Positions 19,692 to 52,516 of a stretch of DNA of 64,000 nt are shown piece after piece. Source of the stretch: Ensifer sp. Root278 (GTDB lineage Bacteria > Pseudomonadota > Alphaproteobacteria > Rhizobiales > Rhizobiaceae); NCBI RefSeq assembly GCF_001429285.1, contig NZ_LMJJ01000002.1, forward strand, positions 62,727-126,726, given 5' to 3'. Both the position numbers and the translations under genes were made by a program. The first letter of the stretch is position 1. Each line of letters begins with the position of its first letter. Below the pieces are notes generated by a model, which saw only the letters and a program-made list of their open reading frames with translations, ran no database searches and was not told the DNA's origin.

Positions 19692-19745
19692 TGTGTTCTT
19701 CTCCTTCAGAACAGGTGTGATGTCTGCTGCTACAATTCCGCTCCG

Positions 19746-23447: not shown

Positions 23448-23455
23448 CGCCAATC

Positions 23456-25042: not shown

Positions 25043-25303
25043 GAGTCCTCCACAAAGCTCTAAAATACTAATATTCCGCACTAGACTCGCGTTTATTGCG
25101 ATTTTTGTTCTGCAATCGATAAGATGATATTTTTCTGTCGTCAACATAAATATGACAGAAAGATATCAAATCAATGAAACGGACTCCCATTCGAGCCCGC
25201 TCAACGCGCGCAGAGGCAGTCGGCAATGATGACCTTTTTCGCAGCCGGGTTCCTTAGGGATCGTCGCGGATCCTCTTTCGGTAAAGGAGGACGAATTGGT
25301 CCG

Positions 25304-26128: not shown

Positions 26129-26310
26129 TCAATACCCCTCCAAAGATAAACAAGTTTGCCGGCTGCGATGCGTGCACCCTGCGTCGGGCCAGATCGAGCG
26201 CGCGCGGGATACAGGGAGAACGGACGCGTGCTGCGCCGAACACCATTCCTATAGGCAGTCGCGGTCGGGGACCCGGACGTCTCGGGAGGTCACCACCCCA
26301 TGTAAGTCAG

Positions 26311-30212: not shown

Positions 30213-30224
30213 GTCTGTCCCAGC

Positions 30225-31820: not shown

Positions 31821-31919
31821 TTTAGTTCCCCTATTTTTAGCCCGTAGATCGAACTTTCTGCGACAGGCTATTTGTAAGTTCTATAAAGTCAATATGTATT
31901 TTGTAATTTAAATTTCAGT

Positions 31920-31949
31920 TTGACACCCTTCCAATTCGGGGCATATGAA
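31920..31949 (+). promoter_or_regulatory. Sigma70-like promoter for the rpiR unit
   Basis: TTGACA at 31920-31925, an 18-base spacer and TATGAA at 31944-31949, inside an AT-rich divergent intergenic region (31821-32022). A start near 31956 would leave a leader before ATG 32023. Confidence 0.5.
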
Positions 31950-32022
31950 ATGTTAGAACGGCTTTCGGATGAAAGTTTCCTTTCACCGGAACGGCACGAT
32001 TACGGAACTATCAAGGCTTCAA

Positions 32023-32910
32023 ATGTCCGCGAAGACGGTAGAGCAACGCTTAAATGATTATCTTGTCACGGGGTCGAAGGCGGAGCGCCGAATAGCGACT
32101 TTCATGCTGGCAAGCATCGCTGAACTGCCGTTTGACACCGCCGCCTCAATCTCGAAGCGGATAGGTGTGAGCGAACCGACTGTGGGACGCTTTTGCCGTA
32201 CTTTGGGCTATCAGAACTTCAAAGCTTTGAAGGAAGACCTCCAGCATGACATCGGTGGAGGTCCCTGGCTGCTCGGTGACCGCCTGAAGGAGTTTCATGA
32301 TCGAAACAAAACCGGTGAAGACGAACCGGGACGCGGGCTCGAGTTAGAAATCGCCAGCCTCGTTCGGATCTATGAACTCGCGCGAACAGAGCAGTGGGCC
32401 CGCGCGGTGAAAAAAATTGCTCGCGACCGGCAGGTCTTTATCGCAGGCTTCCAGACGGAGCGGGGTCTTGCACACTACTTTGCCCATCAGCTCCAATATC
32501 TGCGGCCTAACGTGCATCTTGTCGATATCGCCGGCGGCAACTTCTCCGAGGCATTGTTAAATGGAGAAAAATCGACTGCGCTCGTGATCTTTGAGGCGCG
32601 AAGATACTCGCGGCTATCGGAATCATTGGCCAAGAGCGCGAAGTCGCGCGGCATCCCGCTAACGCTAATAACTGATGCCTATTGCGATTGGGGTCATGAT
32701 CTTGCCGATGAAATGTTCGTCGTGCGAACGGAGTTCGATATGTTTTGGGATTCGACGGCTCATATGGCGAACCTGAGCAACCTCCTGATTAACTCGGTAT
32801 TCAAGGAGCTTGGCCCACAAGTGGAGGAACGCCTCAACGCTGTAACCCGCCTACATGGCGATTTCATCGGATATGTCGGTGAAGCTGCCCGGCAGGATAC
32901 CAAATCATGA
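32023..32910 (+). CDS. RpiR/MurR-family transcriptional regulator
   Basis: A 295-residue regulator. The N-terminal HTH_6 domain covers about residues 10-80 (AERRIATFMLASIAELPFDT, then SISKRIGVSEPTVGRFCRTL). A C-terminal SIS-type sugar/ligand domain follows (VFIAGFQTERGLAHYFAHQL, ALVIFEARRYSRLS). RpiR/MurR members sense phosphosugars or cell-wall sugars. The gene is divergent from peptide importer 2 and upstream of D-aminopeptidase and D-aminotransferase genes, so it probably controls both directions. An earlier in-frame ATG at 31969 lacks a ribosome site; ATG 32023 has AAGG 6 bases upstream. Confidence 0.85.
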   Translation: MSAKTVEQRLNDYLVTGSKAERRIATFMLASIAELPFDTAASISKRIGVSEPTVGRFCRTLGYQNFKALKEDLQHDIGGGPWLLGDRLKEFHDRNKTGEDEPGRGLELEIASLVRIYELARTEQWARAVKKIARDRQVFIAGFQTERGLAHYFAHQLQYLRPNVHLVDIAGGNFSEALLNGEKSTALVIFEARRYSRLSESLAKSAKSRGIPLTLITDAYCDWGHDLADEMFVVRTEFDMFWDSTAHMANLSNLLINSVFKELGPQVEERLNAVTRLHGDFIGYVGEAARQDTKS

Positions 32911-33086
32911 CCGGCGAACTTCTGAATTTGAGAATCTGTCGCAATCCAACTTGGCACTGACAGCCAAGACCGGAAGACACGAACTTACACCGAACTAGCC
33001 TGCCGCCACGCGAGGCAAAGGCCGCCCTGAGGTACTCCGGGTGTCCCTTTGGCTCGTCCGCATTTTCGTACGCAAGGGAACCCAAC

Positions 33087-33884
33087 ATGAAGATTTTCAT
33101 CAGCTCGGATATCGAAGGCACTGCAGGGATTACGGCTTGGGACGAAGCCAAGAAGGGCCAGCCGGAGTACGTAGAATTCCGCGAATACATGACGAATGAA
33201 CTCGTAGCCGCCTGCGAAGGAGCGCAAGCGGCCGGCGCAACGGAAATCGTCGTGAAAGACGCACATTCGTCGGCTCGCAACCTAATCCTATCAAAACTGC
33301 CGCCGTACGTGAGCATCGTCAGGGGCTGGAGCGGGCATCCGGATGAGATGATGTTCGGCATCGATACGAGTTTTTCAGCCGCTCTCTATATCGGCTACCA
33401 CAACAAGGCGGGCACCGATACGAATCCTCTCGCTCATACGCTGAGCGGAGCGGTTTCCAGACTGCTGATCAACGGCGAAGTGGCTTCGGAATTCACACTC
33501 AATGCCCTCTGTGCTTCGCGCTACGGTGTCCCCTCGGCATTTCTTTCCGGTGATGCAGGAATGTGTGCCGAAGCTGAGGTCGCGGTACCGGGCATCGCGA
33601 CACTAGCCACCAGTGAAGGCTTTGGTCCGGCGACGAAATCGTTGGTCCCGGCGGCTGCGGTAATCGCGATCCGTGAAGGCGTGGAGAAGGCCCTGTCGGG
33701 AAACTACAACAACTCGCTGCCGAATCTTGCCGAAGAGTTCGAGCTCGTCGTTGAATACACCAATCCGTCGGACGCCTATAGGAATAGCTGGTACCCCGGC
33801 ATGGAGCATATCGCGCCACGGACGTTGCGCTTCAACGCGCAAGACTACTTCGAGATCCAACGTGCGATACGCTTCGTCGTCTAG
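33087..33884 (+). CDS. D-aminopeptidase, DppA type (M55)
   Basis: A 265-residue zinc peptidase of family M55. The metal and catalytic residues of Bacillus subtilis DppA are preserved at nearly the same positions: SDIEG (D8, E10), VVKDAHSSARN (H60), IGYHNKAG (H105), LAHTLSG (H117, nucleophile position) and the EFTLNA segment. DppA releases N-terminal D-amino acids such as D-Ala from short peptides in the cytoplasm, the step after peptide import. The start has AGGGAA upstream. It is followed by a D-amino acid aminotransferase. Confidence 0.92.
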   Translation: MKIFISSDIEGTAGITAWDEAKKGQPEYVEFREYMTNELVAACEGAQAAGATEIVVKDAHSSARNLILSKLPPYVSIVRGWSGHPDEMMFGIDTSFSAALYIGYHNKAGTDTNPLAHTLSGAVSRLLINGEVASEFTLNALCASRYGVPSAFLSGDAGMCAEAEVAVPGIATLATSEGFGPATKSLVPAAAVIAIREGVEKALSGNYNNSLPNLAEEFELVVEYTNPSDAYRNSWYPGMEHIAPRTLRFNAQDYFEIQRAIRFVV

Positions 33885-33935
33885 ATGCGCCGTCGCGGGA
33901 TGTTCTTGTCTTCCGAATGATAACCGAGGACCCGA

Positions 33936-34811
33936 GTGAGGGCTAAACAGTTGAGCCGAATTGTATATCTGAATGGGGAATTTCTGGAGGAGACCGAAGC
34001 GAAAATCTCGATCTTCGACCGTGGGTTTGTCTTTGCCGATGCCGTCTACGAAGTGACCTCGGTTGTCGATGGCAAGCTGCTTGATTTCGGCGGCCATGCC
34101 GCGCGTCTTGAACGCTCGCTCGGCGAACTGGGCATTCGCCATCCGCTGTCCCAGCAAGTGCTGCTGGCCATCCACCGCGAGTTGGTCGAGCGGAACAAGA
34201 TTATCGAGGGACTGGTCTACCTACAAATTTCGCGCGGCAATCCTGGCCGCCGCGATTTCGCCTTCCCTGCACCCGACGTCGAGCCGACGGTCGTGCTTTT
34301 CACCCAGACGGTTGCCAATCTCGTGGATGCCCCGCAAGCGAGGACCGGCATCAAGGTTATCTCGGTCCCAGACATCCGCTGGGGTCGTCGCGACATTAAG
34401 ACGGTGCAACTCCTCTATCCTTCGATGGCGAAGATGATGGCAAAAGAGGCGGGAGCAGATGACGGTTGGTTCATACAGGACGGCTTCGTCACCGAGGGAA
34501 CCGCAAACAACGCCTACATCATCAAGTCTGGCAGGATCATCACTCGAGCCTTATCGAACGACATTCTGCACGGCATCACGCGCGCCACGCTGTTGCGCTA
34601 CGCCAGGGAAGCACGGATGGAAGTCGCCGAACGGGCCTTCACAATCGAGGAGGCTAAGGCTGCTGACGAGGCATTCATCACTGGGGCATCCTCCTTCGTC
34701 ATGCCCGTGGTCGAAATCGACGGCGCAAGGATCGGGACAGGCCTGCCGGGACCGATCGCCACCGGCTTGCGTGAACTCTATATCGATGAGGCGCGTCGAG
34801 CGGCGATTTAA
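33936..34811 (+). CDS. dat: D-amino acid aminotransferase (class IV PLP)
   Basis: A 291-residue fold-type IV PLP enzyme starting at a GTG with CGAGGA upstream. The PLP lysine is in RRDIKTVQLLYPSMAK (K155), which matches the DIKSLNLL motif of D-alanine aminotransferase rather than branched-chain enzymes. The phosphate-binding EGTANNAYIIK and the N-terminal FDRGFVFADAVYEV also fit. It would convert D-amino acids and 2-oxoglutarate to oxo acids and D-Glu in the cytoplasm. It lies 51 bp after the D-aminopeptidase and probably shares its transcript. Confidence 0.88.
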   Translation: MRAKQLSRIVYLNGEFLEETEAKISIFDRGFVFADAVYEVTSVVDGKLLDFGGHAARLERSLGELGIRHPLSQQVLLAIHRELVERNKIIEGLVYLQISRGNPGRRDFAFPAPDVEPTVVLFTQTVANLVDAPQARTGIKVISVPDIRWGRRDIKTVQLLYPSMAKMMAKEAGADDGWFIQDGFVTEGTANNAYIIKSGRIITRALSNDILHGITRATLLRYAREARMEVAERAFTIEEAKAADEAFITGASSFVMPVVEIDGARIGTGLPGPIATGLRELYIDEARRAAI

Positions 34812-34817
34812 TCCATA

Positions 34818-34846
34818 GGGCGTCTGGCGCCATTTAGCCAACGCCC
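34818..34846 (+). terminator. Possible weak terminator hairpin
   Basis: GGGCGT (34818-34823) can pair with ACGCCC (34841-34846), with an inner GGC/GCC pairing. There is no T-run, so it is only a candidate. Confidence 0.3.
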
Positions 34847-35005
34847 CATATGCCCCCAATTGGTTCGTTCTAACGACGTTTTGTACGGCGGCGGATTAGC
34901 GCGACCTTGATGCGGGGAGCCGAGTTGCAAGTCGGCGAGCCAACTCGCTGTTGACCCACACACAGTATCACAACCCTCTAAGCTGCCACGGAGCAGGAGT
35001 CGAAT

Positions 35006-35959
35006 ATGGGTGAACCACTGCTATTAGACGCCAGACAGACCGCCGCAAAGCTTCCCTTCCCGGAATTGGTTGCGGCTCTTCAACGGGGCTTTGCGAAGGG
35101 ATGCCAGACACCCGCGCGCCACCATCACACATTACGCAGCGAAGGCGAACCTGACGGTACGTTGCTCTTGATGCCGGCCTGGTCCAACGCCGATGACGAG
35201 GATCATTTTCTCGGCGTGAAACTGGTGACCATTATGCCGGGCAACATGAACCGTAGGCTGCCTGCTGTCGTATCGACATACATGCTCTACGACGCCATCA
35301 CCGGAGAGCAGTTGGCCCTCATGGATGGAAACACGCTGACGAGCCGGCGCACTGTGGCAACCTCAGCACTTGGGGCCAAATATCTTTCTCGAGAGGACGC
35401 CTCATCGCTTGTCATTATAGGCGCGGGCCGTGTGGGAAGCCTGATCGCGGACGCCTACTCAGCTGTACGACGGCTTCGGCGCATCGTCATCTGGGACATC
35501 AATCCCGAACAAGCCGACCGCCTCGCCTCTTCCCTCCGTGACCAGGGTCTTCCCGCGAAATCCACGACAGACATTAAAACCGCAATAGAATCCGCCGACA
35601 TAGTCAGCGCCGCAACGCTTGCAACCGCACCCATCATTCGAGGCGAGTGGCTGAAACCGGGCACTCACGTCGATCTCATTGGGGCGTTCACCCCGGAGAT
35701 GCGAGAGGCGGATGATGAAGTGATGCGCCGCTCGTCGATCTACGTCGACACTGCGGTAGCGCTTGAGGAGGCGGGAGAGCTTATCAAGCCACTCGCCGAG
35801 GGGGTAATTGGCAAGAACGCCATTCTTGGCACTCTCACCGACCTGTGCCGAAAGGACGAATTCGCACGTGCGAACGCAGACCAGATCACTTGTTTCAAAA
35901 GTGTAGGCTCTGGGCTCGCCGACCTTACCGCGGCCCAGCTCGTCTATAGACGCATTTAA
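35006..35959 (+). CDS. Ornithine cyclodeaminase/mu-crystallin family protein
   Basis: A 317-residue NAD(P)-binding protein. The family motif DGNTLTSRRTVATSALGAKY is followed by the Rossmann motif VIIGAGRVGSLIADAYS and THVDLIGAFTPEMREAD. The family includes ornithine cyclodeaminase, alanine dehydrogenase and imine (ketimine) reductases. Beside D-amino acid catabolism, a ketimine or imino acid reductase role is attractive. ATG 35006 has AGGAG 8 bases upstream. The specificity cannot be decided from sequence. Confidence 0.85.
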   Translation: MGEPLLLDARQTAAKLPFPELVAALQRGFAKGCQTPARHHHTLRSEGEPDGTLLLMPAWSNADDEDHFLGVKLVTIMPGNMNRRLPAVVSTYMLYDAITGEQLALMDGNTLTSRRTVATSALGAKYLSREDASSLVIIGAGRVGSLIADAYSAVRRLRRIVIWDINPEQADRLASSLRDQGLPAKSTTDIKTAIESADIVSAATLATAPIIRGEWLKPGTHVDLIGAFTPEMREADDEVMRRSSIYVDTAVALEEAGELIKPLAEGVIGKNAILGTLTDLCRKDEFARANADQITCFKSVGSGLADLTAAQLVYRRI

Positions 35960-37011: not shown

Positions 37012-37040
37012 TTGACAGAACACGAAAGTCGAAATCTTAT
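37012..37040 (+). promoter_or_regulatory. Sigma70-like promoter of the lacI unit
   Basis: Consensus TTGACA (37012-37017), a 17-base spacer and TCTTAT (37035-37040; four of six consensus bases). Confidence 0.6.
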
Positions 37041-37042
37041 TG

Positions 37043-37068
37043 TAAAGCGTTTTAGTAAATCGGTTTAC
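37043..37068 (+). promoter_or_regulatory. Double LacI-family operator
   Basis: Two adjoining palindromes with a central CG: TAAAGCGTTTTA (37043-37054) and GTAAATCGGTTTAC (37055-37068). Both follow the TAAAnCGnTTTA form of LacI/GalR operators. They lie right at the expected transcription start, so binding would block the promoter and autoregulate lacI and the downstream transport operon. Confidence 0.68.
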
Positions 37069-37090
37069 AACGGCAAGGGATGGAGCCAAG

Positions 37091-38113
37091 GTGACCACAC
37101 GACGCGTCACAAGCCTCAAGGATGTAGCCCGCGCTGCCGGCGTTTCCGTGACGACGGTCTCGCGGCTGCTGAACGGATCGCTCGACCTTCCTCACGAGAC
37201 GAAGAAGCGGATCTCCGACGCGATCCACGACCTCAATTACCAGCCCAACCCGCATGCCCGCCGGCTCAGCCGCGGTCGTTCCGATACGATCGGTCTTGTC
37301 GTTCCGGATATCGCCAATCCGTTCTTCGCCACGCTCGTAGCCGCGGTCGAAGAAGAAGCGGATACTCGCGGGCTTGCCGTCTCTCTTTACGCGACACTCA
37401 ACCGCGCCGGTCGCGAGGTCGCCTATCTCCAGCTCATCGAGCGCAATCACGTCGATGGCCTGATCTTCGTCACCAACCACCCGGATGACGGTCAACTCGC
37501 CACCCTGATAAACCGAACCGGCAAAGTCGTGATCGCCGACGAAGACGTTCCGGGTGCTCAGGCGCCAAAGCTGTTCTGCGACAATGAGCTGGGCGGATCG
37601 CTTGCCGGCAGGCATCTGGCCGAATTCGGGCACAAAGATGTACTGTTCGTCGGCGGCCCGGAAGCGATGATCAGTTCACGTCGGCGCTTCAACGGTCTTG
37701 AAGGGGCGCTGCGCGACGCTTTTGGCGAGGATTTCCGTCTTTCTAAATACGCCGGCGACTACACGGTGACTTTCGGACGGCAGGCAGCAAAGCGCTTCAT
37801 CGAGGAAGGCCGCCCGGCAACGGCGATTTTCGCCAGTTCGGACGAAATCGCCATTGGCATGATCGAGGTCTTCCGTGACCAGGGGGTGTCGATCCCGGAC
37901 GACGTCTCGGTCATCGGCTTCGACGATGTCGGCCCGCTCCACCTTTTCGGTCCGCCCATGACCGCCGTTCGCCAGCCGGTGCGCGCGATCGGCGAGCGTG
38001 CCCTCTCCCTTCTTCTCGAAACAAACTGGCAGGACAAGCAGGCTCCCATCGAGGAGCTCCTGCCAGTCGAAATCGTCGTGCGGAAATCCGTTGCTCCGCC
38101 TGCGAAACGATAA
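37091..38113 (+). CDS. LacI-family transcriptional repressor
   Basis: A 340-residue repressor starting at a GTG with GGAG 6 bases upstream. The DNA-binding helix-turn-helix and hinge are at residues 6-60 (SLKDVARAAGVSVTTVSRLL, RRLSRGRSDTIGLVVPDIAN). The rest is a periplasmic-binding-like ligand domain ending in DDVSVIGFDDVGPLHLFGPP. It leads the plus-strand cluster and probably senses the compound imported by the adjacent ABC system or its product. The double operator just upstream supports autoregulation. Confidence 0.9.
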   Translation: MTTRRVTSLKDVARAAGVSVTTVSRLLNGSLDLPHETKKRISDAIHDLNYQPNPHARRLSRGRSDTIGLVVPDIANPFFATLVAAVEEEADTRGLAVSLYATLNRAGREVAYLQLIERNHVDGLIFVTNHPDDGQLATLINRTGKVVIADEDVPGAQAPKLFCDNELGGSLAGRHLAEFGHKDVLFVGGPEAMISSRRRFNGLEGALRDAFGEDFRLSKYAGDYTVTFGRQAAKRFIEEGRPATAIFASSDEIAIGMIEVFRDQGVSIPDDVSVIGFDDVGPLHLFGPPMTAVRQPVRAIGERALSLLLETNWQDKQAPIEELLPVEIVVRKSVAPPAKR

Positions 38114-38147
38114 ATCACGCAATGGAGAACCAACAGAGGATGAGAAC

Positions 38148-39104
38148 ATGAATTGGACTTTGAAACGCAGGACCTTAGTCGCCACGCTTGGCTTCACGGC
38201 ATTGACGACCCTCGGCGCGGCTCTCTCACCGGCTCTTGCCGCCGAAAAGACCTTTGCACTCGTGCAGATCAACCAGCAGGCGCTGTTCTTCAATCAGATG
38301 AACGAAGGCGCGCAGAAGGCGGCCGACGCCGCCGGCGCGAAGCTAGTCATTTTCAATGCCAACAACGATCCGGCCGCGCAGAATAGCGCGATCGAGACCT
38401 ATATCCAGCAGAAGGTCGATGGCATCGCCGTCGTCGCAATCGACGTCAACGGCATCATGCCGGCCGTCAACCAGGCGGCCGAAGCCGGGATCCCCGTCGT
38501 TGCCATCGACGCGATCCTGCCGGAGGGCCCGCAAAAGGCGCAGATCGGCGTTGACAACGCCACGGCGGGTGCCGATATGGGCAAGTTCTTCCTCGACTAC
38601 GTCAAGGCCAATGCCGACGGCAAGGCCAAGATCGGTGTCGTCGGCGCGCTCAACTCCTTCATCCAGAACGTTCGCCAGGAGGGATTTGAAAAGACCATCA
38701 AGGGTGTCGACGGCATCAGCTCGGCCGGCGTCGTCGACGGACAGAATGTGCAGGACAACGCGCTCTCGGCCGCCGAGAACCTGATTACCGGCAACCCTGA
38801 CCTGACGGCGATCTACGCCACCGGCGAGCCGGCCCTGATGGGTGCCATCGCCGCGGTCGAGAGCCAGAGCAAGCAGGATAGCGTGAAGGTCTTCGGTTGG
38901 GATCTGACGGCCCAGGCGATCGCGGGCATCGATGCCGGCTACGTCACCGCCGTAATCCAGCAGGACCCGGCCGCCATGGGTGCCGCTGCCGTTGACGCCT
39001 TGAAGAAGATATCCGACGGCGGCAGCGTCGAGAAGACCATCGCCGTGCCGGTAACGATCGTCACCAAGGACAACGTCGAGCCATATCGGGCGATCTTCAA
39101 ATGA
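38148..39104 (+). CDS. Ribose-type ABC substrate-binding protein
   Basis: A 318-residue secreted protein. Signal peptide residues 1-31 (cleavage near ALA-AEK) precede a Peripla_BP_4 domain: NQQALFFNQMNEGAQKAADA, QQKVDGIAVVAIDVN, GIPVVAIDAILPEG. This is the family of ribose, xylose and autoinducer-2 binding proteins, so a sugar- or nucleoside-like ligand is expected. ATG 38148 has GAGGA about 7 bases upstream; the frame is open further upstream inside lacI only by chance. It is the first gene of the importer. Confidence 0.9.
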   Translation: MNWTLKRRTLVATLGFTALTTLGAALSPALAAEKTFALVQINQQALFFNQMNEGAQKAADAAGAKLVIFNANNDPAAQNSAIETYIQQKVDGIAVVAIDVNGIMPAVNQAAEAGIPVVAIDAILPEGPQKAQIGVDNATAGADMGKFFLDYVKANADGKAKIGVVGALNSFIQNVRQEGFEKTIKGVDGISSAGVVDGQNVQDNALSAAENLITGNPDLTAIYATGEPALMGAIAAVESQSKQDSVKVFGWDLTAQAIAGIDAGYVTAVIQQDPAAMGAAAVDALKKISDGGSVEKTIAVPVTIVTKDNVEPYRAIFK

Positions 39105-39907
39105 TGACGACTGAAAGACAGCATCCTCCCGCTGTCGCTGGTGTCGGGGGGGCTCTGCCCTCCCGCACCGGTGCCAGTCCCCGCGTGTCCCTCAAGGGGA
39201 TTATCAAGACGTTCGGATCGCACCAGGCGCTGCGTGGTGTTGACCTCGACATCTATCCCGGCGAGTGCCTTGGCCTCGTCGGCGACAATGCCGCCGGCAA
39301 ATCGACGCTGACCAAGGTCATCTCGGGAACCTACATACCCGATGGTGGGACCATTACTCTGGAAGGCGAAGAGGTTCGGTTTTCGGGGCCCGCTGATGCC
39401 CGCAACCGCAATATCGAAATGGTTTTCCAGGATCTGAGCCTTTGCGACCACATCGATGTGGTCGGCAATCTCTTTCTGGGTCGAGAAATCAGCAAAGGGC
39501 CATTTCTCGATACGAAGACCATGCTCGCCGAAGCCCGCAAGATGCTCGACGCCCTGGAGATCCGCATTCCCCGGCTGACGGGAAAGGTAGCCCAGCTCTC
39601 GGGCGGACAGCGCCAGGCCATCGCCATTGCCCGCGCCGCGTCGTTCAACCCGAAGGTCCTGATCATGGACGAGCCCACTTCGGCACTTGCCGTGGCGGAG
39701 GTCGAAGCCGTGCTCGCGCTCATCAACCGCGTTAAAGCGAAAGGCGTGTCCGTCATCCTGATCACCCATCGCCTCCAGGACCTGTTCCGTGTCTGCGACC
39801 GCATTGCCGTCATGTACGAAGGCACCAAGGTGGCCGAGCGCGAAATCGGCAAGACCAACCTGGAAGACCTCGTCAAGCTGATCGTCGGGGAAGGAGCCAA
39901 ACAATGA
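39101..39907 (+). CDS. Ribose-type ABC ATPase, single nucleotide-binding domain
   Basis: A 268-residue ATPase. Walker A is GDNAAGKST, the signature LSGGQRQAIAIARAA, Walker B VLIMDEPTSALAV, with the H-loop LITHR. RbsA-type proteins usually carry two fused ATPase domains; this one has only one, as in the FrcA/XylG-like half transporters, so it must act as a homodimer. It overlaps the binding protein gene by 4 bp and the permease by 4 bp. Confidence 0.92.
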   Translation: MMTTERQHPPAVAGVGGALPSRTGASPRVSLKGIIKTFGSHQALRGVDLDIYPGECLGLVGDNAAGKSTLTKVISGTYIPDGGTITLEGEEVRFSGPADARNRNIEMVFQDLSLCDHIDVVGNLFLGREISKGPFLDTKTMLAEARKMLDALEIRIPRLTGKVAQLSGGQRQAIAIARAASFNPKVLIMDEPTSALAVAEVEAVLALINRVKAKGVSVILITHRLQDLFRVCDRIAVMYEGTKVAEREIGKTNLEDLVKLIVGEGAKQ

Positions 39908-40905
39908 CGGCCTATACCGAACGCGCAAAAGGCTCGCCGGCGGCGGATTTCCTGTCTGAAAACGCCCAGGTCCTGTCGATCGCCTTCTTTTTCCTGGCCT
40001 GCGTGGTCTTCTTCGCTGCCACGACCGACACGTTCATGACGCTCGGCAACATTCTGAACGTCATCCGCCAGGCGGCGCCGATCCTCATCGTCGCGGTCGC
40101 CATGACGCTTGTCATCATCACCGGTGGCATTGACCTCTCGGTAGGCTCGCAGGTCGCGCTGGTCAATGCGGTTGCCGCCATCGTGATGGCGATGGGCTAT
40201 CCATGGCCGCTGGTCGTCGTCGCCATGCTTTTCTTCGGCGCATTTCTCGGCTTCGTCCAGGGGTGGTTTACCGCCTATCAGGGCATTCCGGCGTTCATCG
40301 TCACGCTTGCGGGCCTGTCGATCCTGCGCGGGCTCGCGCTCTATCTGACGCAGGGCTACTCGATCCCGATCAAGGACGCACCGGGCTTCTTCATGCTTGG
40401 CCGCGGCGAACTGTTGGGCATCCCCGTTCCGGCGCTGATCGCAGTCGCGGTCGCAGTCGCAGGCTATGTCGTCATATCCTCGACCAAATACGGCCGCCAG
40501 GTCGTTGCAGTCGGCTCCAACATGGAGGCCGCCCGTCGCGTCGGCATGCCGGCGAAATGGGTGATCGCTTCGGTCTATATGATCGCCGGGGTTGCCTGCG
40601 CCCTTGCCGGCCTGCTGATCGCCGCCCGCCTCGGCTCCGGCTCGTCGAATGCGGCCGTCGGCTTCGAGCTGCAGGTCATCGCCGCGGTGGTGCTGGGCGG
40701 AACGTCGCTGATGGGCGGTCGCGGCACGATCCTCGGCACCGTGCTTGGCACCATGACGATTGCGGTCATCGGCAACGGCCTGATTCTGATGCATATCTCG
40801 CCGTTCTTCACGCAGATCGTCACAGGCGCGATTATTCTCGTCGCGATCTGGCTCAACACCCGGATCTTCACCGCCAACTTTCGCCTCGGCGGCAAGAAGA
40901 GATAG
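39904..40905 (+). CDS. Ribose-type ABC permease
   Basis: A 333-residue membrane protein of the RbsC family with about 8-10 spans. Family motifs are TGGIDLSVGSQVALVNAVAA, YGRQVVAVGSNMEAARRVGM and AVVLGGTSLMGGRGTILGT. It completes a three-gene importer with tight overlaps. Confidence 0.93.
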   Translation: MTAYTERAKGSPAADFLSENAQVLSIAFFFLACVVFFAATTDTFMTLGNILNVIRQAAPILIVAVAMTLVIITGGIDLSVGSQVALVNAVAAIVMAMGYPWPLVVVAMLFFGAFLGFVQGWFTAYQGIPAFIVTLAGLSILRGLALYLTQGYSIPIKDAPGFFMLGRGELLGIPVPALIAVAVAVAGYVVISSTKYGRQVVAVGSNMEAARRVGMPAKWVIASVYMIAGVACALAGLLIAARLGSGSSNAAVGFELQVIAAVVLGGTSLMGGRGTILGTVLGTMTIAVIGNGLILMHISPFFTQIVTGAIILVAIWLNTRIFTANFRLGGKKR

Positions 40906-40910
40906 CCGTC

Positions 40911-41978
40911 ATGACACAAGAACTGTCTGAAGCACATGTGCGATCCGGCAAGGTGATGACCGTGACGGGGGCGATCGATGCGGAAGAGCTTGGCATCACG
41001 CTGATGCACGAGCATATCCTCAACGATTGCCGCTGCTGGTGGAACGCGCCGCAGACGAAGGAGCGTCAGTATCTCGCCGAAGGTTTCGTCTGCATGGAGA
41101 TCCTCGGCGAACTGCGCCAGGATCCCTTCGTCAACAAGCACAACATCACGCTTGACGACGAACCCCTGGCAATCGCCGAACTGAAAGCCTTCGCCGCCGA
41201 AAGGGGCCGCACGGTCGTCGAGCCCACCTGCAAGGGCATCGGCAGAAACCCGCTGGCGCTCAGGCGGATTTCCAGGGCGACCGGCCTCAACATCGTGATG
41301 GGTGCGGGATATTACCTCGCCTCCTCCCATCCGGCCGAGGTAGCCGGCATGAGCGTCGACCAGATCGCCGACGGCATCGTTCGCGAGGCGATCGAAGGCG
41401 TCGATGGCACGGATGTGAAAATCGGGCTGATCGGTGAGATCGGCGTCTCCGCGGATTTCACCCCGGCGGAGGAAAAGTCGTTGCGCGGCGCGGCCCGGGC
41501 GCAGATTCGAACCGGTCTGCCGCTGATGGTGCATCTGCCGGGCTGGTTCCGGCTCGGCCATCGCGTGCTCGATGTCATCACTGAAGAAGGTGCTGATCTC
41601 CGCCACACCGTGCTTTGCCACATGAACCCGTCGCACGATGATTTCGCATACCAGAGCGAACTTGCCGCCCGCGGCGCGTTCATCGAATACGACATGATCG
41701 GCATGGACTTTTTCTATGCCGATCAGCAGGTGCAATGCCCCAGCGACGAGGAGGCCGCACGGGCGATCGCAAGGCTGGTGGAGGCCGGCCATATCGACCG
41801 CATCCTGCTTTCGCACGACGTGTTCCTGAAGATGATGCTCAGCCACTACGGAGGCAACGGCTATGCCTACGTCCTGCGCCACTTCCTGCCGCGCCTCAAA
41901 CGACACGGACTGAACGACGATGCGCTCGACCGGATGATGCGGGGCAACCCCCGCTCGGTATTCCAAACCGGGGCCTGA
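40911..41978 (+). CDS. Phosphotriesterase-family metal hydrolase
   Basis: A 355-residue TIM-barrel amidohydrolase of the PTE-homology family. Visible metal and active-site motifs are LMHEHIL (HxH near residue 33), LIGEIGVSADFT at the bridging-ligand position (Glu rather than carboxylated Lys), MVHLPGW, HTVLCHMNPSHDD and the late Asp in LLSHDVF. Relatives are lactonases, phosphotriesterases and uncharacterised hydrolases. ATG 40911 follows the permease stop by 5 bp, so it is in the same operon and likely hydrolyses the imported compound or a derivative. Confidence 0.88.
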   Translation: MTQELSEAHVRSGKVMTVTGAIDAEELGITLMHEHILNDCRCWWNAPQTKERQYLAEGFVCMEILGELRQDPFVNKHNITLDDEPLAIAELKAFAAERGRTVVEPTCKGIGRNPLALRRISRATGLNIVMGAGYYLASSHPAEVAGMSVDQIADGIVREAIEGVDGTDVKIGLIGEIGVSADFTPAEEKSLRGAARAQIRTGLPLMVHLPGWFRLGHRVLDVITEEGADLRHTVLCHMNPSHDDFAYQSELAARGAFIEYDMIGMDFFYADQQVQCPSDEEAARAIARLVEAGHIDRILLSHDVFLKMMLSHYGGNGYAYVLRHFLPRLKRHGLNDDALDRMMRGNPRSVFQTGA

Positions 41979-42018
41979 CAGTCGGCTCCAAACGCAATTC
42001 AAGACCTACGGATAGAAC

Positions 42019-42786
42019 ATGACCAAGAAAGTACTTCTCGTCGGCGAGAGCTGGGTTAGCTCCGCCACCCACTATAAGGGTTTCGACCAGTTCGGCAGCG
42101 TCACCTTTCATCTCGGGGCGGAACCGCTCGTCAAGGTGCTGAAGGGCAGCGAATTCGAGCTGACCTACATGACCGCGCACGACGCGGTCGAACAGTTCCC
42201 TTATGAGATGGCCGGCCTCGACGCCTACGACGCCATCATCCTGTCGGACATCGGCGCCAACTCGCTGTTGCTGCCGCCGGCAGTCTGGCTGCACTCCCGC
42301 ACCGTTCCGAACCGGCTGAAGCTGATCAAGGCCTGGGTGGAAAAAGGCGGCGCATTGCTGATGGTCGGCGGCTACTTCTCCTTCCAGGGCATCGACGGCA
42401 AGGCGCGCTGGCGCCGTACGGCGGTCGAAGACACGCTTCCCGTCACCTGCCTTCCCTATGACGACCGCGTCGAAATCCCCGAAGGTGCTGTTGCCGACGT
42501 CGTCAAGCCGGATCATCCGACCATGGCGGGGCTTTCGGGCGACTGGCCGCTGCTTCTCGGCGTCAACGAAGTGGAGGTGCGCCCGGGCGCGGAGGTCATC
42601 GCCCGTCTTCCGGCAGACCAGGGCGGCCACCCGCTGCTCGTCCTTGGCAGCTTCGGCAAGGGCCGCACCGCCGCCTGGACGTCCGATATCGGCCCGCACT
42701 GGCTGTCGCCGGCATTCTGCGAGTGGGAGGGCTACGGCCGCCTCTGGAAGAACATCCTCGGATGGATGACGGAGACGGCGCGCTAG
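42019..42786 (+). CDS. Class I glutamine amidotransferase-like protein
   Basis: A 255-residue protein with a flavodoxin-like GATase1 fold: VLLVGESWVSSATHYKGFDQ at the N-terminus, DAYDAIILSDIGANSL in the middle and KGRTAAWTSDIGPHW near the end. No obvious Cys sits in a nucleophile elbow (the expected position reads MVGGYFS), so amidotransferase activity is doubtful. It looks like the cytoplasmic amidotransferase-like proteins found next to sugar operons. It follows the PTE gene by 40 bp; function unknown. Confidence 0.7.
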   Translation: MTKKVLLVGESWVSSATHYKGFDQFGSVTFHLGAEPLVKVLKGSEFELTYMTAHDAVEQFPYEMAGLDAYDAIILSDIGANSLLLPPAVWLHSRTVPNRLKLIKAWVEKGGALLMVGGYFSFQGIDGKARWRRTAVEDTLPVTCLPYDDRVEIPEGAVADVVKPDHPTMAGLSGDWPLLLGVNEVEVRPGAEVIARLPADQGGHPLLVLGSFGKGRTAAWTSDIGPHWLSPAFCEWEGYGRLWKNILGWMTETAR

Positions 42787-42796
42787 GCACGGCAAA

Positions 42797-42823
42797 GCGC
42801 GCTGGGTTGAAAACTCAGCGCGC
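42797..42823. terminator. Bidirectional hairpin between convergent genes
   Basis: A 12-bp stem: GCGCGCTGGGTT (42797-42808) with AACTCAGCGCGC (42812-42823), one G-T wobble, loop GAA. It overlaps the last codons of the convergent PfkB kinase gene. The T-tract is poor on either strand. Confidence 0.5.
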
Positions 42824-43714
42824 GGCGAGGATCGCCGTCAGTTGCTCGAGCGAGGGGAACGCCGAGCGGGTGCCCGGGCGGCTGACGGTGATGGCGGCAG
42901 CCCGCGTCGCATGTTCGATGGCCGTCTTGTCGAGGCCGCTGCCACGCAGTGCCGCGGATGCCAGCGCCACCGCCATGAACGTGTCGCCGGCACCTGTCGT
43001 GTCGACGACGTCGCATTCGACGGCAGCAACACGGACGCTGCCCTCGGCTGTGACAAGCATGGCGCCGTTGCCGCCGAAGGTCAGGACGACTTCGCGAACG
43101 CCAGCCGCAAGCAACTTGCGGGCAGCCTCTTCGCCACGTGTGCCGGTCATTGCCTGCGCCTCGCCCTCATTGAGAAAGGCGATGTCGGTCAAAGGCCACA
43201 GGTTGCTGAAATAGGGACGCAAGGGAGACGGATTGAAGGCAGTAGTCATTCGGCGGGTGCGAGCGGCCTCAAGCACGCCTCGGGTCGTCTCGTCGGACAG
43301 ATTGCCCTGGAGCACCGCGAGGTCTCCGGGAGCGGCATTGGCAAAGGGCGCGATGGCATCGGCAAGCGTTAGGTTTTGCGCGCAGTCGGTCGTGGTGATG
43401 TTGACGTTTTCGCCATCCGGTGTGGTCAGCACGATCGAGAAGTCGGTGGACTTCCCGGGGATGGGCACAAGGCGACTGACGACCGGTTCGCTCGCCAGGT
43501 GCTGGCGGATCATGTCGGCGCGAAAGCCGTCGCCGAAAGCGGCAACAAGGCTCGTCGACAGGCCCGTCCGGGCCATCACGACCGCCTGGTTCGCGCCCTT
43601 GCCACCAAGATCCCGGGATCGCTGGCTGCCATGGATCGATGCGCCCGCGGCCGGCATTTCCGACACGGCGATGGTCTCGTCCACCGTCACATTACCGATT
43701 ACGTAAGCGTGCAT
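42815..43714 (-). CDS. PfkB/ribokinase-family sugar kinase
   Basis: A 299-residue kinase. The N-terminal PfkB signature RDLGGKGANQAVVMARTG and the C-terminal catalytic motif DVVDTTGAGDTFMAVALAS (Asp base) are intact. Family members phosphorylate ribose, nucleosides, pseudouridine or hydroxymethylpyrimidine. I chose ATG 43714 (AAGG 8 bases upstream) over 43720. It is the only gene in the cluster on the minus strand, converging on the amidotransferase-like gene and divergent, by 25 bp, from btpA. Confidence 0.88.
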   Translation of the reverse strand: MHAYVIGNVTVDETIAVSEMPAAGASIHGSQRSRDLGGKGANQAVVMARTGLSTSLVAAFGDGFRADMIRQHLASEPVVSRLVPIPGKSTDFSIVLTTPDGENVNITTTDCAQNLTLADAIAPFANAAPGDLAVLQGNLSDETTRGVLEAARTRRMTTAFNPSPLRPYFSNLWPLTDIAFLNEGEAQAMTGTRGEEAARKLLAAGVREVVLTFGGNGAMLVTAEGSVRVAAVECDVVDTTGAGDTFMAVALASAALRGSGLDKTAIEHATRAAAITVSRPGTRSAFPSLEQLTAILAAR

Positions 43715-43739
43715 GAACATACCTTCGAAAGGGAGAGAA

Positions 43740-44582
43740 ATGCAGGAAATATCTGACAAGTCCTCAAGCGCCATAAGGGAAATATTCGGGACTGACAAGG
43801 TTCTGATCGGCATGATCCATTGCCCGGCCTTCCCCGGTGCGCCGCGCTATCGGGGCGCCGATATGTCGACCATCTACGATGCCTGCATGCGTGATGCCGA
43901 GGCGCTGGTCGAGGGTGGCCTGCATGGCCTGATGATCGAAAATCATGGCGACGTGCCCTTCTCCAAACCGGAAGATATCGGCCACGAAACGGCAGCCTTC
44001 ATGTCCGTCGTCACCGACCGGATCGCGCGGGCCACCGGTGTGCCGCTCGGCATCAACGTCCTTGCCAATGCGCCGATCCCGGCCTTTGCGATCGCCATGG
44101 CCGGCGGCGCCAGGTTCATCCGCGTCAACCAGTGGGCCAATGCCTATGTCGCCAATGAAGGCTTCATGGAGGGCCGTGCGGCAGAAGCAATGCGATATCG
44201 TTCGCTGCTGCGCGCCGAGCACATCAAGGTCTTTGCCGACAGCCACGTGAAGCATGGCGCTCACGCGATCGTCGCCGACCGGTCGATCCAGGAACTGACG
44301 CGTGACCTCGCCTTCTTCGATGCCGACGGCGTGATCGCCACCGGTCAGCGCACCGGCAACACGGCAACCATAGAGGAAATCGAAGAGATCGGCTCGGCCA
44401 CGCATCTGCCGCTTCTGGTCGGCTCGGGCGTGACCAAGGACAACATCGTCGAAATACTCAAGCGCACCAACGGCGTGATCGTTGCCTCGTCGCTGAAGCA
44501 GGGCGGGGTCTGGTGGAACCCGGTCGACATCGAGCGGGTCAAAGCTTTCCGCGCCGCCGCAGAACCGGCGCTGGAGGCATGA
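43740..44582 (+). CDS. BtpA/SgcQ-family TIM-barrel protein
   Basis: A 280-residue protein of the BtpA family: LIGMIHCPAFPGAPRY, GLMIENHGDVPF, NVLANAPIPAFAIAMAGGAR, RVNQWANAYV and ADSHVKHGAHAI. E. coli SgcQ in this family is a putative nucleosidase or aldolase; cyanobacterial BtpA affects photosystem I stability. The activity is unproven. ATG 43740 has GGGAGAG upstream. It is followed by tenA with a 4-bp overlap, so the two are translationally coupled. Confidence 0.85.
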   Translation: MQEISDKSSSAIREIFGTDKVLIGMIHCPAFPGAPRYRGADMSTIYDACMRDAEALVEGGLHGLMIENHGDVPFSKPEDIGHETAAFMSVVTDRIARATGVPLGINVLANAPIPAFAIAMAGGARFIRVNQWANAYVANEGFMEGRAAEAMRYRSLLRAEHIKVFADSHVKHGAHAIVADRSIQELTRDLAFFDADGVIATGQRTGNTATIEEIEEIGSATHLPLLVGSGVTKDNIVEILKRTNGVIVASSLKQGGVWWNPVDIERVKAFRAAAEPALEA

Positions 44583-45232
44583 CAATGGTGGCTGAAACGC
44601 TTTCGGAACAGATCCTGCGGGAAAACGCTGCCGTCTTCGAAGCCATGGTGAACCATCGCTTCGTCGACGACATCGTGCTGGAGCGCCTGTCCGCGCAAGT
44701 TTTCGAACGCTATCTCGTCTATGAGGGTGCCTTCGTCGAAACCGCGATCTCGATCTTCGCCTTTGCGACGGCGAAGGCCGAGACGATCGTACAGAAGCGC
44801 TGGCTGATCGCCGTTCTGGATGCGCTCTCCAACCAGCAGATTGCCTATTTCGAACGGATTTTTGCCGAGCGCAGCATCGATCCCGGCGCCTACGATCTCA
44901 ATGTTGCCGAGGTCGAGGCTTTCCGAACGGGCATGCTGGATATCGCCCGCAACGGAGGCTTCTTCGATACCGTCGCCGCCATGTTCGCCGCGGAATGGAT
45001 GTACTGGACCTGGTCGAAAAGGGCTGCGCAAGCAAACATTGCCGATCCGCATCTGAAAGAATGGGTCGAAATGCATGCGGATGATGATTTCGCGGCGCAG
45101 GCGAAGTGGCTGAGGCAAGAGCTCGACGCCGCCGGCGACACGCTCGAGGTTTCCGAGCGCAAACGTCTGAGCGCTATCTTCGGGCGCGCACAGCAACTGG
45201 AAATCGCCTTTCATGATGCAGCCTACGGCTGA
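44579..45232 (+). CDS. TenA-family protein lacking the active-site Cys (TenA_E type)
   Basis: A 217-residue all-helical protein of the TenA/thiaminase II family (SEQILRENAAVFEAMVNHRF, FERYLVYEGAFVETAISIFA, AAMFAAEWMYWTWSKRAAQ). The whole protein contains no cysteine, so the catalytic Cys of classical TenA_C enzymes is absent and it falls in the TenA_E group. TenA proteins hydrolyse aminomethyl-pyrimidine from degraded thiamine, and TenA_E members have been linked to related pyrimidine salvage. ATG 44579 overlaps btpA; ATG 44585 is an alternative. Its coupling with a carbamoylase/deformylase-like gene is suggestive. Confidence 0.82.
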   Translation: MTMVAETLSEQILRENAAVFEAMVNHRFVDDIVLERLSAQVFERYLVYEGAFVETAISIFAFATAKAETIVQKRWLIAVLDALSNQQIAYFERIFAERSIDPGAYDLNVAEVEAFRTGMLDIARNGGFFDTVAAMFAAEWMYWTWSKRAAQANIADPHLKEWVEMHADDDFAAQAKWLRQELDAAGDTLEVSERKRLSAIFGRAQQLEIAFHDAAYG

Positions 45233-45258
45233 TCGGGACGACCTGTCAGGAGCCGACC

Positions 45259-46509
45259 ATGACCTCTCGCATCGAAATTGACGGCAAGCGACTGCTGCAG
45301 CGCCTCGATGACTTCGCAAGGATCGGGGCGACGCCTGCCGGCGGCGTCAACCGACAGGCCCTGTCGACCGAAGATCGCACCTCAAGGCGCCTTCTGGCCG
45401 AGCGCGCGCTCGCGCGCGGTTTTCGCGTGTTTCAGGATCCGATGGCGAACCTGTTCATCCGGCGCGAAGGCCGCTTTCCCGAAAAGCCCCCCTTCGTCAT
45501 CGGCAGCCACCTCGACAGCCAGCCGACCGGCGGACGCTTCGATGGCGCTCTGGGAACCCTTTCGGCCTTCGAGGTGATGGAAAGCCTTGAGGATGCCGGG
45601 ATCGAAACGGATCTGCCGATCGAGGTTGTTGCCTGGACCAACGAAGAAGGAAGCCGGTTCCAACCGGGGACCATGGGTTCCATGGCCTTCGCCGCGGCCA
45701 CGATCCCTGACGCCTGGTCCGATCTTCGCGGTCGCGACGGCGCCCGGTTCGTCGAGGAGTTGAAGGCAACGCTGCACGCCTTGCCGGAGGCCGAAATGCG
45801 TCCACTCGGTTTCCCGATCTCCGGCTATATCGAACTTCATATCGAGCAGGGTCCGTCGCTCGAACAGGAAAACACCCCGATCGGCATCGTCTACGGCATC
45901 CAGGGTACGCGGTGGCTGGAGGTGACGATCAGGGGCCAGGCAGCGCATGCCGGCACGACGGCACTCGAGTTCCGTCGCGATCCCATGGCGGCCGCCATAG
46001 CCGCGCTCGAACCGCTCTACAAGGGCACGATGCCGGGCGATCCGCGCGTCCGTTTCACCGTCGGCCGGTTTGCGATCGAGCCGGGTTCGGTGAATGCCAT
46101 TCCGGGCTTGGTGACGTTCACCATCGACCTCAGGCATCCGGAAACTACGGTCATCGACGCGTTGGAAAACCAGATCCGGCGCGCCTGCGACAACGCTGCC
46201 GCGGCCGCCGGCTGCCGGAGCGAATTGAGGCAGATCTTCGACATGCCGCCGGCTGCCTTTTCGGAAGACCTGCTGGCCGGCCTCGATCGCGCCGCCGCGT
46301 CGCTCGGATTGAAGACCAAGCGCATGCTCTCCGGCGCCTTCCACGATGCCTTGTTCGTCAGTCGTGTTGCGCCGGCGGCCATGATCTTCGTGCCTTGCCG
46401 CGATGGGCTTAGCCACAACGAGGCCGAATATGTCGAGCCAGAGCACTCCGTAACAGGTGCGCGCATGCTGCTTGCAGCCGCCATGGAAGCGATTGTCCTA
46501 AGCGCATGA
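45259..46509 (+). CDS. M20-family Zn amidohydrolase (N-carbamoyl/formyl amino hydrolase type)
   Basis: A 416-residue metallo-amidase of the hydantoinase/carbamoylase (HyuC/AllC/YlmB) subfamily. Zinc ligands are in IGSHLDSQPTGGRFDGALG (His, Asp), WTNEEGSRFQ (Glu), YIELHIEQGP (His) and GLSHNEAEYV (His). The lid domain carries GQAAHAGTT. Relatives cleave N-carbamoyl-amino acids, allantoate, N-carbamoyl-beta-alanine, or the N-formyl pyrimidine in thiamine salvage (YlmB). It follows tenA by 26 bp with AGGAG before the start, so a TenA-YlmB-like pair is plausible; substrate not proven. Confidence 0.88.
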   Translation: MTSRIEIDGKRLLQRLDDFARIGATPAGGVNRQALSTEDRTSRRLLAERALARGFRVFQDPMANLFIRREGRFPEKPPFVIGSHLDSQPTGGRFDGALGTLSAFEVMESLEDAGIETDLPIEVVAWTNEEGSRFQPGTMGSMAFAAATIPDAWSDLRGRDGARFVEELKATLHALPEAEMRPLGFPISGYIELHIEQGPSLEQENTPIGIVYGIQGTRWLEVTIRGQAAHAGTTALEFRRDPMAAAIAALEPLYKGTMPGDPRVRFTVGRFAIEPGSVNAIPGLVTFTIDLRHPETTVIDALENQIRRACDNAAAAAGCRSELRQIFDMPPAAFSEDLLAGLDRAAASLGLKTKRMLSGAFHDALFVSRVAPAAMIFVPCRDGLSHNEAEYVEPEHSVTGARMLLAAAMEAIVLSA

Positions 46510-51757: not shown

Positions 51758-52516
51758 TTAGGCTGCCGCCTGAGGTTGTTGGGCATTCCATGTCCTGAAG
51801 TCGAGTTGACCCAGCTTGGCGGATCCGAGAGGAACCAGTGACTGATCGTCGACGCGCGTGCCGAAGTACTTGGCGTCCGGGTCGGCAACAACCTTTCGGC
51901 CATCGCCGACAGCTGCCAGATACTCGGAAATGAATTCGCTCATGGGCTTCTTTTCGGGCCCGGCGATTTCGATCGTCTGGTTTTCAGGCTTGCCGATCGT
52001 CGCTTCTGCGACGAAGGTCGCGACGTCGTCTGCGGCGATCGGCTGGAACGCGCCGGACGAGACCCTGGCGGTCCTGTCGACCGTTGCCTCATCGGCAATG
52101 CCGCCGAGGAACTCCAGGAACTGCGTCGACCTTACGATGGTGTACGGAACGCCACCTTTCTTGATCAGGGTCTCCTGTGCGACTTTGGCGCGGAAATAGC
52201 CATTGTCGGGCGACCGTTCGATACCGACGATGGAGAGTGCGACGTGGTGTCCGACACCGGCCGCCCGCTCCGCCGCAAGCAGGTTCGAGGTCGACCGTTC
52301 GAAGAACGAAAGCACGGCGCTCGGTTCGAAGGATGGCGAGTTGCTGACGTCGAGCACCACCTGAGCGCCGGCAAGCACCTCGGCCAACCCTTCACCAGTC
52401 AGTGTATCGACGCCCGTGGACGGCGCCGATTGCACGACGTCGTGGCCCTTGCTTCTGAGGCGCTCTGCGACTTTTGACCCGATGCGGCCGGTCCCGCCGA
52501 TAATGACGATTTTCAT
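51758..52516 (-). CDS. NmrA-like NAD(P)-binding protein (copy 1)
   Basis: A 252-residue atypical SDR. The Rossmann motif MKIVIIGGTGRIGSKVAERL, the NSPSFEPSAVLSFFE region and PYTIVRSTQFLEFLGGIA mark the NmrA/SDR_a5 group. The catalytic YxxxK is atypical. A paralogue sits at 58615-59367 with the same length and the shared segment NGYFRAKVAQE. It probably reduces a small quinone or carbonyl, or binds NADP as a sensor. AGGAG precedes the start. Confidence 0.85.
   Translation of the reverse strand: MKIVIIGGTGRIGSKVAERLRSKGHDVVQSAPSTGVDTLTGEGLAEVLAGAQVVLDVSNSPSFEPSAVLSFFERSTSNLLAAERAAGVGHHVALSIVGIERSPDNGYFRAKVAQETLIKKGGVPYTIVRSTQFLEFLGGIADEATVDRTARVSSGAFQPIAADDVATFVAEATIGKPENQTIEIAGPEKKPMSEFISEYLAAVGDGRKVVADPDAKYFGTRVDDQSLVPLGSAKLGQLDFRTWNAQQPQAAA

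Follow-up and report, generated by a model that had tools for sequence, protein, structure and literature searches.

A conserved LacI-associated gene cluster of rhizobia that may import and degrade a pentosyl-nitrogen compound

We analysed a stretch of 64,000 nucleotides (nt) of DNA from Ensifer sp. Root278 (contig NZ_LMJJ01000002.1; hereafter the window) and found that ten genes between positions 37091 and 46509 form a real cluster, far above chance, because dozens of other species have these genes side by side as well. The cluster may serve the LacI-repressed catabolism of a pentosyl compound, most likely a ribosyl one, with amide, formamide or ureide bonds in its non-sugar part, a reading to which we give a probability of about 0.4. 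A pentosyl-nitrogen conjugate would be taken up by a ribose-type ATP-binding cassette (ABC) importer, a hydroxyl of the sugar would be phosphorylated by a PfkB kinase, and BtpA would break or rearrange the bond between the phosphorylated sugar and nitrogen, sending a pentose phosphate into central metabolism. A PTER-like phosphotriesterase-family protein (PTE), a TenA-like protein and, where present, an M20 enzyme would hydrolyse amide bonds, either in the substrate itself or in the portion set free. The analysis shows the conservation of the genes, an operator, the protein families, the conservation of likely PTE metal ligands and a predicted fold for BtpA; the substrate class, the order of the steps and the chemistry of BtpA are inferred. 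A nucleoside is a plausible candidate for the imported compound. The ten genes are:

37091-38113, plus strand: LacI-family regulator with a GTG start (Pfam LacI 61.7 bits, Peripla_BP_1 102.1 bits)
38148-39104, plus strand: RbsB-like periplasmic binding protein (Peripla_BP_4 181.6 bits; solved relative 5HSG, E=1.3e-119)
39101-39907, plus strand: ABC importer ATPase with a single domain, 268 amino acids (ABC_tran 111.7 bits)
39904-40905, plus strand: ABC importer permease of the ribose type (BPD_transp_2 133.1 bits)
40911-41978, plus strand: PTE-family metallohydrolase of the PTER type (PTE 237.6 bits; 3K2G E=5.9e-174, 9EFA E=1.9e-64)
42019-42786, plus strand: GATase1_like protein (PF07090, 433.4 bits; solved relatives 2GK3 and 3SOZ)
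42815-43714, minus strand: PfkB kinase of the ribokinase type (PfkB 156.7 bits; closest solved 3I3Y/3IKH, E=4.9e-73)
43740-44582, plus strand: BtpA/SgcQ-family barrel (Pfam BtpA 238.3 bits; TIGR00259 224.1 bits, cut-off 153.4)
44579-45232, plus strand: cysteine-less TenA-like protein (TENA_THI-4 54.9 bits; conserved E49, E139, E208, H166 and W162)
45259-46509, plus strand: accessory M20 amidase of the hydantoinase/carbamoylase family (Peptidase_M20 87.6 bits; TIGR01879 377 bits, cut-off 204)

A Pfam profile scan of the window proteins recovered all ten genes that an earlier note on this DNA had listed, with scores above the curated cut-off for each of PTE, GATase1_like, PfkB, BtpA, TENA_THI-4 and Peptidase_M20. 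The nine junctions measure -4, -4, -4, 5, 25, 26, 28, 34 and 40 nt, in line with the overlaps and very short gaps which that note had described. Its row of genes stands as far as the presence of PfkB is concerned, but the kinase gene is not in line with the others: it lies on the minus strand, pointing towards GATase1_like and away from BtpA.

Scanning genomes with TenA as the seed gave 129 confirmed stretches, of which 80 loci were taken, mostly from Rhizobium, Ensifer/Sinorhizobium, Mesorhizobium, Phyllobacterium, Nitratireductor, Martelella and other Rhizobiales. Most of the 80 retain PTE, GATase1_like, BtpA and TenA at 59-99% identity. In Rhizobium leguminosarum 3841 the cluster corresponds to RL_RS26965 to RL_RS26925. 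We also counted genes in 113 stretches, the window included, which were chosen through similarity to TenA, BtpA, PTE or PfkB, extend to about 25 kb at most and include contig ends; a gene was scored as present when a match of at least 40% identity (57% for BtpA) lay anywhere in the stretch, and the figures describe co-location, not prevalence. Nine core genes (LacI, binding protein, ATPase, permease, PTE, GATase1_like, PfkB, BtpA and TenA) occur together in 87 of the 113, accompanied by M20 in 45 of these complete stretches. M20 is thus an accessory member: it follows TenA directly in 45 of 80 judgeable loci and is absent from 35, the contig being too short in one further locus. GATase1_like adjoins PTE in at least 99 of 102 PTE loci, the true misses being L047 and L053 (L096 was counted as lacking it though it is present).

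Single-protein searches, which yielded further loci, matched BtpA in 20 of 199 genomes of the order (E≤1e-30), TenA in 12 of 199 (1e-15) and PTE in 10 of 398 genomes of the phylum (1e-90). Seven of the 199 genomes, Root278 included, encode a TenA at least 46% identical, and all seven have a BtpA at least 59% identical nearby, at 66 nt or less in six and at 3.9 kb in the seventh; the other five TenA-bearing genomes (27-34% identity) gave no BtpA match at 1e-30. The genes therefore stay together in other genomes, contrary to what the earlier note had given as grounds for abandoning its proposal, and its description of a LacI-controlled import-and-catabolise cluster is borne out by the conserved gene set. 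A search of CC-licensed papers returned no description of this set. We know of no settled function for BtpA/SgcQ, for GATase1_like or for this branch of TenA, which occur together in well-studied rhizobia; identification of one ligand could assign a function to several families and reveal a rhizosphere compound that is consumed, and would give a role to the solved close relatives 5HSG, 3K2G and 3I3Y.

The model of BtpA (predicted local distance difference test, pLDDT, 89.1) has ThiE, HisF, HisA, TrpF and TrpA as its nearest folds, with query-normalised template modelling (TM) scores of 0.51-0.61, and the alignment shows GSG and VASSLK motifs kept at the C-terminal strands. Barrels of the ThiE/HisF/HisA type bind phosphate at these strands. 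According to the model, BtpA is likely a TIM barrel resembling binders of phosphorylated sugars and likely acts on a phosphorylated sugar, a point in favour of the earlier note's interpretation. A role in photosystem I was considered and rejected, as NF045918 scored 188 bits with a cut-off of 400.

We read 17 BtpA copies outside the main cluster, with only some of their neighbours scanned, and found that 12 of them have both a sugar kinase and an enzyme acting on amides or ureides nearby:

L047, second BtpA copy: PfkB and M20
L055: PfkB, M20 and Amidase
L057 and L059: PfkB and Amidohydro_2
L061, 3239-14472: PfkB, a SIS-domain protein and BtpA in a row, Amidase upstream and ABC importer genes downstream
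L170, in the Root278 genome, C8:212001-230000: BtpA (73.9 bits) in a row with a Ureidogly_lyase-family protein, PfkB, GntR and a family-3 (amino-acid-type) binding protein
L171, L172, L173, L174, L175 and L177, from genomes of the same order: FGGY kinase and M42 peptidase

The loci with BtpA, M42 and FGGY recall the sgc operon of E. coli (SgcQ, SgcX, SgcE and a phosphotransferase system, PTS). Like the cluster, sgc combines a BtpA-family protein and a metallohydrolase (M42) with sugar phosphorylation; it relies on a PTS and M42, whereas the cluster has an ABC importer, PfkB, PTE, TenA and M20. A broader proposal, which we hold to be rather unlikely, is that BtpA/SgcQ would be the phosphoriboside-opening enzyme of a widespread salvage route, in which the kinase, BtpA and interchangeable amide hydrolases would act together to break down N-ribosyl ureides or formamides such as ring-opened purine ribosides, with the kinase promoter inside btpA in most rhizobial copies. 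To our knowledge no bacterial catabolic pathway has been described for such compounds.

The same fold can also be read in another way, namely that BtpA is an isomerase of the HisA/TrpF kind, converting an N-(5-phosphoribosyl) amine or amide into a 1-amino-1-deoxyketose phosphate that a later enzyme would split. HisA, TrpF and HisF are indeed among its closest folds, a SIS-domain protein resembling the isomerase half of GlmS lies between PfkB and BtpA in L061, as in fructosamine-phosphate deglycase systems, and E. coli sgcQ is near the ribulose-phosphate epimerase gene sgcE. However, the main cluster has no identified SIS protein, the catalytic residues of HisA and TrpF were not matched in BtpA, and GATase1_like, the sole enzyme left unassigned, is missing in L047 and L053. 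We consider this isomerase unlikely, albeit the most credible of the alternatives.

The hydrolases of the cluster bear on the non-sugar part of the substrate. PTE residues H33, H35, E176, H208, H237 and D303, which we take from family knowledge to be the six metal ligands, are each retained in 98% or more of 100 homologues. The nearest solved structures are 3K2G and then 9EFA, a PTER-type relative. Mouse PTER is described, in an excerpt of PMC11374699, as an N-acetyltaurine hydrolase that binds metal through H26, H28 and E169 and whose best match among structures is 3K2G of Rhodobacter sphaeroides; an extract of PMC13311154 adds N-acetyl-beta-alanine to its substrates. Because 3K2G is also nearest to the cluster PTE, followed by 9EFA, it is a fair guess that this protein is likely an N-acyl amide hydrolase as well. 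The two share the HxH and Glu metal ligands, but the cluster PTE is bacterial and lies within a sugar-import cluster.

GATase1_like, called amidotransferase-like in the earlier note, belongs to PF07090 by its profile score, but amidotransferase activity is doubtful because residues 117-123, read from the sequence and not from a structure alignment, are GGYFSFQ in place of the Cys elbow, and because 98% or more of 99 homologues share Y119, S121 and Q123; its only Cys residues are at 144 and 234. Class I amidotransferases carry their Cys nucleophile in an elbow of the GxCxGxQ type. M20 scored well above the hydantoinase/carbamoylase cut-off, and the TenA-like protein is likely an amide hydrolase; the idea of several amide hydrolases in one cluster is supported.

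Genes of the allantoin type adjoin a few copies of the cluster. L053 runs on after TenA, the first junction being a 4-bp overlap, into genes for a D-hydantoinase (499 bits, cut-off 393), RidA, a ureidoglycine aminohydrolase (300, cut-off 200) and an allantoate amidohydrolase (516, cut-off 479), and L047 has homologues of the first three at the same place. In L046 a hydantoin-racemase-family protein and two proteins resembling PuuE allantoinase lie beside pfkB. These neighbours, together with the Ureidogly_lyase-family protein between BtpA and PfkB in L170 and the activity of TenA_E and YlmB on N-formyl-aminopyrimidine in thiamine salvage, would fit a more specific substrate, namely a purine riboside with an opened or oxidised ring whose base is fed into allantoin or ureide catabolism. 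But the loci are few, the L170 protein reached 42.6 bits against a ureidoglycolate lyase cut-off of 260, and the PuuE-like proteins of L046 reached 255 and 279 bits against 424.6, which leaves this narrower substrate a doubtful choice, a shade more so than the isomerase.

The importer and the kinase speak to the sugar. The binding protein is closest to 5HSG, a structure labelled K. pneumoniae in an excerpt of PMC12459267. Aligned to 2IOY, it keeps the Phe-Phe pair, two Asp and the Gln of ribose-binding proteins and is without two Arg and two Asn; we presume the compared positions of 2IOY to be its ribose contacts. PfkB has the GGKGAN and DTTGAGD motifs and scored 178.6 bits against ribokinase TIGR02152 (cut-off 299.65). 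Its closest solved relative 3I3Y is named a carbohydrate kinase, and we take it to be the Klebsiella ribokinase with D-ribose; the ribokinase-group PfkB of the earlier note is upheld.

PfkB-family PsuK phosphorylates pseudouridine, a riboside, before PsuG cleaves the glycosidic bond, and the proposed kinase-then-BtpA step would be analogous; the cluster, however, has no PsuG among its ten genes, has BtpA instead, carries extra amide hydrolases, and its kinase scored 29.8 bits against pseudouridine kinase NF007355 (cut-off 540). Plain uptake of ribose or another pentose, with unrelated hydrolases alongside, would suit an importer and a kinase of the ribose type and the presumed identity of 3I3Y. 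It is nevertheless quite improbable, as the binding protein and the kinase both fall below the NCBIfam ribose cut-offs and PTE, GATase1_like, BtpA and TenA are retained, at the identities given above, in most of the 80 loci.

The TenA-like protein contains no Cys at all, as had been noted before, and it scored 49.7 bits against thiaminase II TIGR04306 (cut-off 130). Among its homologues in the stretches, E139 (whose position we read as the equivalent of Cys135) and E208 are conserved in 94 of 94 and E49 in 93 of 94. Where the solved relative 1z72 has Asp, 93 of 94 homologues have Glu; we take this Asp to be the pyrimidine-contact position, Asp44 of B. subtilis. The two classes of the family, TenA_C and TenA_E, are described in an excerpt of PMC10277260. 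No thiamine pyrophosphate (TPP) riboswitch was found in 149,509 bases comprising the window and four relatives, and no thiamine genes were seen among the annotated or Pfam-scanned neighbours, only part of the neighbours being scanned. Salvage through TenA_E and YlmB shares a Cys-less TenA and an M20-family enzyme with the cluster, but the TenA of the cluster misses the thiaminase II cut-off and has Glu in place of Asp, and a thiamine context was not seen. The earlier note's proposal of thiamine or pyrimidine salvage, to which the TenA family match and the carbamoylase-group M20 lend themselves, is accordingly the least probable explanation and was not borne out, given the TIGR04306 score, the signature residue, a context free of TPP riboswitches in all five sources, the absence of M20 from 35 of 80 loci and the ribose type of the importer; for thiamine itself we reject it on the cut-off, the residue and the context.

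Several observations weigh against the proposed degradation of a pentosyl-nitrogen conjugate. Sequence comparison gave BtpA no convincing relative among solved structures (best E=0.032), its top 50 folds also include biotin synthase, KDO8P synthase and dihydropteroate synthase, and a predicted likeness at TM 0.50-0.61 leaves the chemistry unfixed. Among the 17 other BtpA copies, L056, L058 and L176 have a kinase and no amide enzyme identified, L060 is adjoined by neither (L056, L058 and L060 share a protein of 240-244 amino acids of no assigned family), and the second BtpA of L046 lacks a kinase of its own, its neighbours being the PuuE-like and hydantoin-racemase-family proteins and an amidohydrolase. 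Nor are the 17 independent, since L055, L060 and L061, and likewise L171 and L172, come from the same genome or genus. In the 20 kb read of L157 and L161 neither PfkB nor BtpA accompanies the importer, PTE and GATase1_like, the same Glu also occurs in the TenA of L062, which does not belong to the cluster loci, and genes of the allantoin type adjoin the cluster in three loci only, below cut-off in one of them.

Control by LacI is suggested by a conserved, predicted tandem operator. Upstream of lacI, and inside btpA, we found the following elements:

37012-37040, plus strand: likely promoter by sequence (TTGACA, 17 nt, TCTTAT), just upstream of the operators
37042-37068, no strand assigned: tandem LacI operator, two overlapping sites 13 nt apart (GTAAAGCGTTTTAG, GTAAATCGGTTTAC), conserved upstream of lacI
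43771-43799, minus strand: putative pfkB promoter within btpA (CTTGTC, 17 nt, TTATGG), from synonymous-site conservation

The pattern [GC]TAAANCGNTTTA[CG] was sought within 200 nt upstream of lacI in 81 loci with a LacI at least 60% identical. At least one site was present in 77 and two sites with the 13-nt spacing in 70; L044, L129, L134 and L143 had none within that distance. It occurs 167 times in the 2,278,675 bases of sequence collected. Thirteen of these sites are away from the LacI start; 12 of the thirteen precede some other cluster gene at a short distance, in most cases the ATPase gene of the gammaproteobacterial arrangement. The 7.1-Mb genome of Root278 contains the pattern at three places, two of them in this cluster, and a reversed-pattern control at none. 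The third, likewise an exact match, coincides in part with a stop codon elsewhere, and the gene after that begins about 230 nt further on; we take this site to be probably due to chance and a wider LacI regulon in this genome to be unlikely.

In the 113 stretches pfkB is on the strand opposite to btpA in 77, on the same strand downstream in 16 and on the same strand upstream in eight; one has no PfkB match and 11 have no BtpA at threshold. The start codons of the divergent pairs are 21-42 nt apart in 75 loci and 3-4 kb apart in L046 and L049. Synonymous sites were compared in loci with a BtpA at least 75% identical (67 divergent and 16 others). Codons 9-20 of btpA hold the most conserved synonymous sites of the gene in the divergent loci, where 11-codon windows 9 and 10 rank first and second of 250, whereas in the 16 loci with pfkB downstream of tenA they rank only 69 and 172 of 269; in 200 random sets of 16 divergent loci the median rank of window 10 was 2. 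Codon 12 is the rare ATA in 65 of the 67. CTTGTC on the minus strand occurs in 61/67 divergent against 11/16 other loci, and together with a loose match to a -10 element in 36/67 against 0/16, judged by the rhizobial promoter consensus. A pfkB promoter thus appears to sit inside btpA. The codon signal is support and not proof, because the 16 other loci are close relatives (R. leguminosarum group, Phyllobacterium and one other), four of them keep ATA at codon 15, and conservation of 5' codons can reflect translation initiation.

A btpA promoter sought inside the 5' end of pfkB gave no comparable signal (mean 0.115 against 0.095), so btpA, tenA and M20 may depend on the lacI promoter and be transcribed from it through pfkB in antisense. 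The noncontiguous operon or excludon, as presented in an excerpt of PMC7154746, likewise has an opposite-strand gene within an otherwise one-way operon; here, however, 24 of the 113 stretches have pfkB and btpA on one strand.

The gene set varies outside the main arrangement. In a second one (L048, L050-L052, L054 and L154-L156) importer, PTE, GATase1_like, PfkB and BtpA run in one direction with no TenA match in the stretch, and M20 is present in all eight loci except L156. In plasmids of Pantoea sp. At-9b and P. dispersa the gene order of the set is changed and the M20 is of the ArgE/DapE type, and P. dispersa has an additional four-gene importer and another M20 beside TenA; the Pantoea PTE region had no match in E. 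coli genomes at the DNA level. Two Paracoccus plasmids differ from each other: M20 but not TenA is present in one, TenA but not M20 in the other. For Klebsiella pneumoniae CP125156.1, TenA, BtpA, binding protein, LacI, importer, PTE and M20 are listed, an IS1-like transposase is at the expected place of pfkB, and GATase1_like is not annotated, the PLSDB gene table being incomplete; PLSDB gives this 5.37-Mb sequence as a plasmid, and its length suggests a chromosome. The conjugative IncL/M Klebsiella plasmid NZ_MW245020.1 has only the permease, PTE, GATase1_like and M20 of the cluster, between IS26 copies. L049 is a variant with the operator 31 nt before BtpA; a PhyH-family gene comes after BtpA, and the stretch has no PTE or GATase1_like match. 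L069 (12076-17000), L085 and L107 have a second set downstream of the main cluster, made up of a LacI-PfkB fusion, another GATase1_like, importer genes and an M20 deacylase.

Elsewhere in the window, 18210-35959 encodes M81 (MlrC), an M55 D-aminopeptidase, a class IV aminotransferase and an ornithine cyclodeaminase-family protein among genes that we read as ABC importers, a group that suggests the catabolism of D-amino acids or peptides. Two NAD(P)H-binding (NmrA-like) genes (51758-52516 and 58615-59367) and two metallo-beta-lactamase-fold genes (54764-55612 and 61811-62740) all lie within 11 kb.

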